Assembly (NCBI RefSeq): GCF_000970025.1
Contig: NZ_CP009528.1
Location: 4,017,168 to 4,081,167 of the forward strand
Source of the DNA: Methanosarcina barkeri MS
GTDB lineage: Archaea; Halobacteriota; Methanosarcinia; Methanosarcinales; Methanosarcinaceae
DNA length: 64,000 nucleotides
Direction of reading: 5' to 3'
Both the position numbers and the translations under genes were made by a program. Position 1 is the stretch's first letter, and the number at the start of each line of letters is the position of its first letter. The notes beneath the pieces are model-generated. The model worked only from the letters and a program-made list of their open reading frames with translations, was not told where the DNA came from and searched no databases. Below are positions 27,979 to 30,447 of the stretch, one piece after another.

Positions 27979-29106
27979 ATGAAACATGGTAAAAGAATAT
28001 TGATAGGATCACTTGTTTTGACGATATTGCTTATTGGAGTAGTATTTGTAGCTTCGGCATCTGCCAACGATTCCCAGAAAACATTATCAGAAGATGAAAT
28101 TTCGGGAACAACTGATTCTAACGATGCACAAATACCTGATATTGGCCCCCAAATTTTTGAGAGTTTGAAAAATGATCCTAATGTCTTAGCGACAAAAGGA
28201 CAGATTCCAAACTATACCACTCAGGTAGATAAACAAAATTGGCTGAGTAAACTTGATAATAGTAGAGTTCTCTTGGATAAGGATACGAATATGAAATTAT
28301 ACTTGTATCCAAAAGGGCCTGTTATAGGCTACAGTTGGGATGTTAATGGTTATTTAGAGGTTAATTTTTATAAAGGTATGAATGTTACAGATTCTCAAAT
28401 TAATGAAATCTATAATCTTATAAATAAAAGAGCAAATGAAGCATCTGTGCAAGAAGTTCCTGTCGTGTTCTATAAAAACGATTTTTTCAAGGATGAAGTT
28501 AGTGGTTACGACTCTTACTATCGTCCAATAAATGGTGCTATAAAAGTTACCGGTGAAACTGGTTCCTCTGGAACAATAGGGTATGCCGCGAAAACAAGTT
28601 CTGGAACTAAAGGATATGTAACTGTACAACACCTTGGAACTTACGTGGGTTATGATATGTATCAGCCGGTATCAGATGCGGCAGGATCTGTCAGCAAAAT
28701 TAGTGGTCATCATGCAGATGCATGTTTCGTCCCTTATAGCAATGTGGCTGCAAAAATACATATTGGTGGTGGTTCAACTGCAAATGTTTATAATTACGTG
28801 AAAACAATTCCCAATAGTGGATGGGTAAACTGGAAAGTGTATATATCTGGTGCAGCTTCTGGAGTAAAAAGTGGATATATAAAGGGTGCTGGACTGACAC
28901 TTACCGAAGGTGGAGGGCCATATTATAACATGGTAAAAACAAATTATAGTTCAACGAATGGAGATAGTGGAGCTCCAATCTACCGTATATTATCAGGTAA
29001 CTATATAGTTTTAGGAATTCACAAAGGTACATTTAATGGTTATAAATGGTTCTCTCCAGTTTCTGGAATTAATTCTGATTTAGGTGTCCTTCCAATTAAA
29101 GCTTGA
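27979..29106 (+). CDS. Secreted chymotrypsin-fold serine protease with pro-region
   Basis: 375 residues, with gggggatag as a strong ribosome-binding site. A signal peptide (residues 5-29, GSLVLTILLIGVVFVASASA) is followed by a pro-region of about 105 residues (66-172) and a trypsin/alpha-lytic-like S1 domain. The catalytic triad is readable: H218 in GYVTVQHLG, D247 in HHADACFVPY and S330 in TNGDSGAPIYR. GIHKG after the serine matches the substrate-binding strand. It resembles bacterial streptogrisin/alpha-lytic proteases, which need their pro-region to fold. No membrane anchor, so probably released. The pro-region is homologous to two repeats in the next gene. Low GC and methanogen-atypical family suggest acquisition by transfer. 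Confidence 0.88.
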   Translation: MKHGKRILIGSLVLTILLIGVVFVASASANDSQKTLSEDEISGTTDSNDAQIPDIGPQIFESLKNDPNVLATKGQIPNYTTQVDKQNWLSKLDNSRVLLDKDTNMKLYLYPKGPVIGYSWDVNGYLEVNFYKGMNVTDSQINEIYNLINKRANEASVQEVPVVFYKNDFFKDEVSGYDSYYRPINGAIKVTGETGSSGTIGYAAKTSSGTKGYVTVQHLGTYVGYDMYQPVSDAAGSVSKISGHHADACFVPYSNVAAKIHIGGGSTANVYNYVKTIPNSGWVNWKVYISGAASGVKSGYIKGAGLTLTEGGGPYYNMVKTNYSSTNGDSGAPIYRILSGNYIVLGIHKGTFNGYKWFSPVSGINSDLGVLPIKA

Positions 29107-29292
29107 AAAGGCTATATCTAATATTTGTTTAATTTTTTTAGTGATGGAGGAACATTTCTAAATATACACACTTGAAGTAGAAAATCCGATCAAATAGGCT
29201 TATGATCAAACTTACCAACAAAACAGTTAGATGCCTATTAGTACGGATCATTCAATTTAATTTCGCAAGTTCTTCTTTTTAGAGTGATAAAC

Positions 29293-30447
29293 ATGAAAAA
29301 AATAAAATTTGTCCTCATATATTTAATGGAATTTCTTATGATTTTTTATTGTACTACAGGAACTGCTTTTGGAGTAAATTTAACTGATAATAAGTCAGTT
29401 CAGTCAGGTGATAACTTGAACACTGGAATCACTAATGTAAATTTTGATTACTATAAGTACTTCTTTGGTCTGGATTCATATGGGAATACTGTAATTACCA
29501 GATACGGCAAACTCCCTTTACTGGAAACTGAAGAACAAAAGGAAAGCTGGAATTCAACCCTTGAAGAACTCAGTAATAAAATAAAAGATCCTCTTGCCTC
29601 CAAATACATGTATCCTCAAGGAGAAGTAGTAACATGTGGAACTAATGAAAAAGGATACTTTGTAATTTTGTTCAAGTATGGTAATGTTGATGAGCCGTTA
29701 ATGGATGAAATATACGTTCTAATAGATAATTCTGCAAAAGAAATGAAAATAAACGATATTCCGGTAGAATTCGGATACGGAACTTATAGGCAGGAAATTA
29801 CATTAAATTCAGAACAAGGCATCTATTACTGGTTTGGAGAAAATATGGACAATCTTTCTGAATCAGACATACATATAATTCAAGAGATTATGAAGGAAAA
29901 ACCAACCACGCCAGTACAAAAAATAGTTGCAGCATATGGAAAAATTCCTCTTCTAAAAGACCAGAATGAAATAATTACTTGGGCAGATAAGTTATCTGCA
30001 ATTGCTGGTAGTACCCAGAACAAAATCAATCCATACATGGAAAGAGAACAGGTAATAGTATATGGAGGAGAGCTCACTAGATTAGAAGTAGGGATTAACG
30101 AAACTTTACCTTCAAAAGAAAAGAATACTATAATAAAAGAGATTTATCAGATTATTGACGAAGAAGCAAGAAGACAAAATATAACTGATGTTCCGGTTAT
30201 TTTTGACGAAGGCGTATTTATTAATGAAGTCGCAACTGAAGATACAGAAGCCGAAGAAACTAACTTATCATTATCTGAAGAGGAAAAAACACGAGAACTC
30301 AATAATTCAAAGGACAATAATTCTGAGTCTGATAATGTTAGTAGCTCAAGTGGAAATGAATCGAGTAAAAAGAACTCCACTCCAGGCTTCGGATTATTGA
30401 GTGGTTTGGTCTGCCTTTGTGGAGGATGGAAGTTCGGTAAGAAGTAG
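29293..30447 (+). CDS. Surface-anchored protein with two protease-pro-domain-like repeats and PGF-CTERM tail
   Basis: 384 residues from the ATG at 29293 (GAGTGA upstream; a GTG at 29284 is the alternative). After a signal peptide come two repeats of about 105 residues (about 64-168 and 207-312). Each has YGKLPLL or YGKIPLL, a conserved Trp, a YMYPQGE/YMEREQ strand, an EIY-LID helix and NDIPVEF/TDVPVIF. The same pattern forms the pro-region of the protease just upstream, but here there is no protease domain. An acidic Ser/Asn-rich linker leads to STPGFGLLSGLVCLCGG and a KFGKK basic end, the layout of PGF-CTERM archaeosortase substrates. I infer an anchored inhibitor, folding partner or receptor for the protease. 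Confidence 0.82.
   Translation: MKKIKFVLIYLMEFLMIFYCTTGTAFGVNLTDNKSVQSGDNLNTGITNVNFDYYKYFFGLDSYGNTVITRYGKLPLLETEEQKESWNSTLEELSNKIKDPLASKYMYPQGEVVTCGTNEKGYFVILFKYGNVDEPLMDEIYVLIDNSAKEMKINDIPVEFGYGTYRQEITLNSEQGIYYWFGENMDNLSESDIHIIQEIMKEKPTTPVQKIVAAYGKIPLLKDQNEIITWADKLSAIAGSTQNKINPYMEREQVIVYGGELTRLEVGINETLPSKEKNTIIKEIYQIIDEEARRQNITDVPVIFDEGVFINEVATEDTEAEETNLSLSEEEKTRELNNSKDNNSESDNVSSSSGNESSKKNSTPGFGLLSGLVCLCGGWKFGKK

Follow-up and report, generated by a model that had tools for sequence, protein, structure and literature searches.

A Predicted Secreted S1-Type Protease and a Putative Surface-Anchored Inhibitor Built from Copies of Its Pro-Domain in Methanosarcina

Introduction

Propeptides of proteases can exist as genes of their own. 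The stand-alone subtilisin propeptide-like inhibitors include SUB1-ProM of Plasmodium, TgMIC5 and the members of MEROPS family I9, such as the P. ostreatus proteinase A inhibitor 1, the yeast proteinase B inhibitor and Arabidopsis SPI-1. SUB1-ProM, the closest known case to the gene pair described here, is a potent inhibitor of SUB1 and is encoded at a syntenic locus beside subtilase genes (PMC6993865).

Bacteria provide a second group of related systems. In the SpeB–Spi, staphopain–staphostatin and Bacteroides C10 pairs, the gene of a secreted cysteine protease adjoins the gene of its own specific inhibitor. Spi resembles the pro-sequence of SpeB. The bacterial inhibitors are thought to protect the producer; for Spi and the staphostatins the presumed site of action is the cytoplasm, and some of the Bacteroides proteins are predicted to be membrane-associated (PMC3462683).

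Alpha-lytic protease and the streptogrisins combine a catalytic domain related to the one studied here with an N-terminal pro-region. Pro-regions of the alpha-lytic type are tight inhibitors of their own protease, and to our knowledge no partner gene for an anchored pro-region on its own has been described for these enzymes. In alpha-lytic protease the pro/mature junction spans the active site (PMC2829044), and the contacts at this junction are critical for the catalysis of folding according to a reference cited in that paper. Membrane-anchored helpers of an exported hydrolase are also known, namely the Pseudomonas lipase foldases LipH/Lif (PMC13381987).

Here we report the analysis of a 64,000-nucleotide window from Methanosarcina barkeri MS (contig NZ_CP009528.1, positions 4,017,168 to 4,081,167), in which the gene of a predicted secreted protease is followed by a gene for two further copies of its pro-domain. 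Like the subtilase propeptide inhibitors, the partner holds a propeptide fold as its own gene, and as a pro-domain homologue without a catalytic domain it is I9-like in its putative working, but not in family. SUB1-ProM and the I9 group are eukaryotic, act on subtilases (S8) and have shown inhibition, whereas the window partner is archaeal, is built from an S1-type pro-domain that is often tandem in its family, is probably surface-anchored and is a predicted inhibitor. With the bacterial pairs the locus has the gene arrangement in common; those pairs, however, involve cysteine proteases, and the staphostatins, unlike the window partner, are not pro-domain copies. The lipase depends on LipH/Lif, while the window protease has a cis pro-domain and relatives that exist without any partner. 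Stand-alone propeptide inhibitors and protease–inhibitor gene pairs are thus already known elsewhere; new here are the archaeal host, the pro-domain of an S1 protease, the archaeosortase-type tail and the frequent multi-domain form. A literature search of partial coverage yielded no publication on either the pair or its pro-domain family.

Results and Discussion

The first gene of the pair (27979..29106, forward strand, as are all features of the window given below) encodes a predicted secreted S1-fold serine protease precursor of 375 aa. A signal-like N-terminus is followed by the pro-domain (about residues 56–172; 28144..28494), which was delimited by HMM, by hhalign against the stand-alone domains and by an AlphaFold2 model from a shallow alignment, and then by the S1-fold catalytic domain (residues 181–373; 28519..29097), which in the same type of model has a pLDDT below 50. 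His218 (28630–28632), Asp247 (28717–28719) and Ser330 (28966–28968) of the catalytic triad, together with the GDSG motif, are invariant in an alignment with 22 relatives. A profile of 15 catalytic domains matches the S. fradiae serine proteinase, alpha-lytic protease and streptogrisin B with E values of 5.5e-15 to 1e-12. By profile and triad, the catalytic domain is a member of the alpha-lytic/streptogrisin group, which supports the reading of an earlier note on this DNA that was made without database searches. By eye, two related proteases have a C-terminal extension resembling a dockerin (L111 4914–6146, L149 4602–5390); for L111, Pfam returned no such family.

The pro-domain differs from those of alpha-lytic protease and the streptogrisins in that it has no sequence match to PF02983: a search of the own genome with this alpha-lytic pro-domain model, taken as far as E 10, came back empty, and in the control genomes the model also stayed below the cut-off. 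Structure prediction covered the window sequences and the homologous locus L046, and Foldseek gave no match at E up to 0.001 for either predicted model. A second-look structural alignment of the pro-domain lists the alpha-lytic pro region 4pro_C with Z 4.8 over 75 residues (2.9 Å, 16% identity), a score that unrelated folds equal, and 3pro_D with Z 4.5, again level with unrelated folds; for the repeat protein, the alpha-lytic pro region is absent among the matches listed. We therefore treat the modelled likeness of the pro-domain to the alpha-lytic pro region as a lead only. Pfam, NCBIfam and PHROGs did not place either of the two proteins in an informative family.

The partner gene (29293..30447) encodes a stand-alone tandem pro-domain protein of 384 aa without a catalytic domain, as judged from the ORF and the HMM. 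This length is counted from the ATG at 29293; a GTG at 29284 is an alternative start. A signal-like N-terminus precedes pro-domain repeat 1 (29482..29772) and repeat 2 (29917..30204), after which come an Asn/Ser-rich spacer (30229..30381) and a PGF-type tail (30382..30444). No Pfam or NCBIfam family scores above threshold for this protein, and hence it falls into no named inhibitor family by sequence.

The protease pro-region and both repeats of the partner are homologous, far above chance. Searching the own genome with the protease retrieved repeat 1 with E 2.4e-9 (32% identity, residues 63–168) and repeat 2 with E 0.0077, and the reverse search with the repeat protein retrieved the protease pro-region with E 1.7e-9. 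An iterated pro-domain HMM recognises the protease pro-domain, repeat 1 and repeat 2 with E values of 4e-36, 4.6e-29 and 3.1e-24. The earlier note had seen common motifs between protease residues 66–172 and the two repeats, had suggested an HMM–HMM comparison and had named a lack of significant similarity as grounds for giving up its proposal. That comparison, run with hhalign on 15 protease pro-domains against 19 stand-alone domains, gave an E value of 1.8e-39 (probability 100) across 111 columns that span the full domain, so the similarity seen in the note is real.

The partner ends in STPGFGLLSGLVCLCGGWKFGKK, in which PGF is followed by a hydrophobic stretch and a basic end. The curated PGF-CTERM models of Pfam and NCBIfam do not recognise this tail; short tails of this kind are easily missed. 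Similar tails close several other ORFs of the same genome, which also encodes archaeosortase A (TIGR04125, E 1.3e-77, above the curated cut-off). PG[FL] stands near the C-terminus of 66 of 82 stand-alone ORFs versus none of 51 proteases. In Haloferax volcanii, archaeosortase A processes and lipid-anchors proteins with PGF-type tails (PMC7157517), and the substrate definition given there (PGF motif, hydrophobic stretch, basic end) is matched by the partner tail, for which we predict processing, lipid attachment and anchoring. The earlier description of the second gene as lacking a protease domain and ending in a PGF-CTERM-like tail thus stands, even though the curated models miss the tail. Given the partner's signal-like N-terminus and its surface-type tail, we did not pursue the idea of a cytoplasmic role like that of Spi.

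We next consider how regularly the two genes occur together. For this count, the DNA around 51 protease ORFs in Methanosarcinaceae was read. In 43 of them a stand-alone pro-domain ORF follows immediately 3' on the same strand, with gaps of 34–699 bp between the two genes. Among the other eight, two lie near a contig end (L132, L146) and one is a fragment (L150); L149 has a stand-alone gene just upstream of the protease, L115 has one about 1.5 kb away on the opposite strand, and only L121, L124 and L148 have none nearby. If we judge roughly by how many stand-alone genes a genome contains, well under 1% of proteases would be followed by one by chance. All three protease genes of the own genome have a partner, and one genome carries four consecutive protease–partner pairs in a single 14-kb stretch (L133 4961–18963). 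The pairing is a family-wide rule in Methanosarcinaceae, and this count excludes an accident of one genome. The same pair was found in Methanosarcina sp. isolate UBA11020 (L046), where the protease is 64% and the partner 72% identical. A wider contig search with a single query protein found one locus, and patterns made from the window proteins found no relatives in viral contigs. Longer proteases, of 485–509 aa, occur in a single genus of the family, whose partners end in the tail variant IPGVGL or IPGIGI (L205, L206, L207).

Outside Methanosarcinaceae but within the phylum, L178, L179 and L200 have a stand-alone gene immediately behind the protease, while no such gene was found close to the protease in L192–L195 and L197–L199. 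The adjacency of partner and effector that marks toxin–immunity systems is therefore found at 43 of 51 proteases within the family, but only at some loci in other families. The stand-alone gene is also the more widespread of the two: of 112 Methanosarcinaceae genomes, 73 have the pro-domain and 35 the protease domain, the latter in some cases as a remnant. The earlier note had named frequent occurrence of either gene without the other as refuting its proposal. This holds in one direction, since within the family the protease is rarely without its partner, but stand-alone genes are frequent where there is no protease. Such genes fit the picture of orphan immunity genes, yet leave room for other targets; in protease-free genomes they either have another target or are leftovers.

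Partner and protease have diversified jointly. Cognate pro-domains are on average 33% identical versus 27% for non-cognate ones, a difference reached in 0 of 20,000 permutations, and the distances between catalytic domains correlate with those between partners (r 0.81) almost as closely as with those between the proteases' own pro-domains (r 0.84). For the window pair the cognate similarity is not raised, at 25% against a non-cognate mean of 28%. A tree of 135 domains, which has few columns and many weak forks, requires on its well-supported branches at least five switches between the protease-borne and the stand-alone state, and several of its clades hold both members of a pair; those of L122 are 76% identical. 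The stand-alone domains hence have a repeated origin. Comparison of the window pair with that of L046 gives dN/dS values of about 0.35 (protease) and 0.23 (partner), which shows stronger conservation of the partner. Within it, purifying selection acts strongly on both repeats (about 0.10 for repeat 1 and about 0.16 for repeat 2).

From these data we regard it as on balance probable that the gene pair encodes a secreted protease together with a surface-anchored inhibitor that spares the producer. By analogy with alpha-lytic protease, the first gene would give a secreted serine protease whose own pro-domain aids folding and silences the enzyme until it is cut free. The second gene would supply two more copies of the pro-domain, which would be exported and, after processing of the PGF-type tail by archaeosortase A, fixed to the outer membrane face of the producer. 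Mature protease that reaches this surface would be bound by the anchored pro-domains as by its own and kept inactive; the producer would be spared, while protease farther off would stay active. We infer each of these elements, that is, secretion, anchoring, binding, inhibition and the purpose of self-protection, from the sequences.

This reading draws on the homology, the pairing, the joint diversification, the repeated stand-alone origin, the purifying selection and the presence of archaeosortase A, to which are added the PGF-type tails found on partners and on no protease, the missing junction motif and the fate of partners at damaged loci, both described below. In other organisms, moreover, proteins of the stand-alone propeptide type are known to inhibit proteases (PMC6993865). 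Against it stand the window pair's own identity values, the failure of the curated models to recognise the tail, the many genomes with stand-alone genes and no protease, and the frequent lack of a partner outside the family.

The main rival for the paired copies is docking, in which the anchored pro-domains would hold mature protease at the surface for digestion near the cell, perhaps with slow release. Homology, anchor and pairing would be the same in this case, and sequence cannot separate binding from lasting inhibition. We nevertheless think docking unlikely. Since alpha-lytic-type pro-regions are tight inhibitors, a bound protease should be inactive, and docking would serve no purpose in the cases in which a stand-alone gene has been kept although the protease is broken or missing. 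An intact partner lies beside a broken or remnant protease at six loci (L107, L109, L145, L208, L209, L210), some of which may reflect sequencing errors in draft genomes. The reverse case, an intact protease with a broken partner, is clear at one locus (L105), although these numbers are small and some genomes are drafts. A stand-alone domain is also kept where the catalytic domain has apparently been lost. The gene at L186 4392–5081 (G086) is a hybrid of protease and partner: its 5' part, comprising upstream region, signal peptide and the start of the pro-domain, has about 85% DNA identity to the protease gene of L119/L039, and the remainder matches the downstream partner at 90–95%. This pattern is most simply explained by deletion of the catalytic domain through recombination between the two pro-domain copies. 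A similar fusion at L113 gives a two-repeat protein and is a plausible origin of tandem repeats like those of the window.

It is likewise unlikely, to our mind, that the stand-alone proteins act instead as a general shield, with orphans and hybrids in particular inhibiting the proteases of other strains or species and not the product of the neighbouring gene. The excess of genomes with the pro-domain over those with the protease domain (73 versus 35 of 112) would agree with such a role, as would the many orphan and multi-domain forms, including those with HEAT repeats (L120, L159) or with the N-terminal region of a C39-like peptidase precursor (L043). For paired copies, the window's included, the cognate protease is the target suggested by the tight pairing and by the joint diversification, but orphans may inhibit proteases of other microbes more widely. 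A broader proposal would join both ideas in a widespread archaeal protease-immunity system: S1 proteases would hit the envelopes of neighbours, anchored pro-domains would protect the producers, and orphan, tandem and hybrid forms, some of which also carry a precursor region known from another protease family, would be stored immunity against the proteases of other strains. We put this forward as a tentative and rather doubtful extension.

A role as trans folding helper, in which the anchored pro-domains would fold the protease after export in the manner of the membrane-bound lipase foldases, we consider very unlikely. The genes are adjacent and alpha-lytic-type pro-regions do catalyse folding (PMC2829044), but every intact protease has a cis pro-domain, and the proteases of L192–L195 and L197–L199 have no adjacent partner. 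As the protease brings its own pro-domain and related enzymes manage without a partner, an obligate foldase is improbable. The junction speaks in the same direction. A pro/mature junction pattern follows 45 of 48 protease pro-domains and 0 of 116 stand-alone domains, which therefore lack the element whose alpha-lytic counterpart matters for folding catalysis, at least according to the work cited in PMC2829044. Inhibition in trans, of an immunity-like kind, fits better than an obligate folding helper, because orphan pro-domains persist without a protease and proteases elsewhere in the phylum are often partnerless. The earlier proposal that the second protein supplies two pro-domains in trans, fixed to the cell surface, to inhibit or fold the protease or protect the producer, is accordingly upheld in its homology, pairing and tail; inhibition would be the best fit for the function, whereas the folding alternative is disfavoured by the cis pro-domain, the partnerless proteases and the absent junctions. 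That the partner is left over, without function, from a tandem duplication and the loss of the catalytic domain is hardly credible, for although relics and truncated copies exist (L045, L211), the dN/dS of 0.10–0.16 in both window repeats and the family-wide pairing speak against it.

If the pair is indeed a protease with its anchored inhibitor, it would offer a simple recipe for an immunity gene, namely to duplicate the built-in inhibitor of an enzyme and anchor it on the surface. The deletion products, whose catalytic domain was lost through recombination between the two copies of the pro-domain, suggest a route by which orphan immunity genes can come about. The reading also gives a testable function to a large protein family that has no name in the curated libraries searched, and it concerns methane-producing archaea, in which self-protection from secreted proteases has been little studied.

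Several further architectures were seen among the relatives. In two genomes of the phylum outside the order (L180 3599–4579, L183 4039–4740), a C-terminal membrane segment replaces the catalytic domain after signal and pro-domain, and these two parts have about 79% DNA identity to the protease gene of L178. The HEAT repeats mentioned above lie at the N-terminus of the stand-alone pro-domain proteins (L120 6013–7200, L159 4124–5419), and the gene in L120 is located immediately 3' of a protease gene. The stand-alone proteins of L043 4736–6493 (own genome C2, about 2726735–2728486) and L186 11767–13509 have an N-terminal region and, after it, two pro-domains of the S1 type and a PGF tail. This N-terminal region shares 55–62% identity with the corresponding part of Peptidase_C39_2 proteins encoded in the same genome, and such a protein may be an inhibitor that combines pro-domains of two kinds. 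Finally, UPF0228 genes adjoin Peptidase_C39_2 genes or their remnants at L213 2713–3714 and at a similar ORF in L216; UPF0228 might be a partner protein of the Peptidase_C39_2 peptidases.
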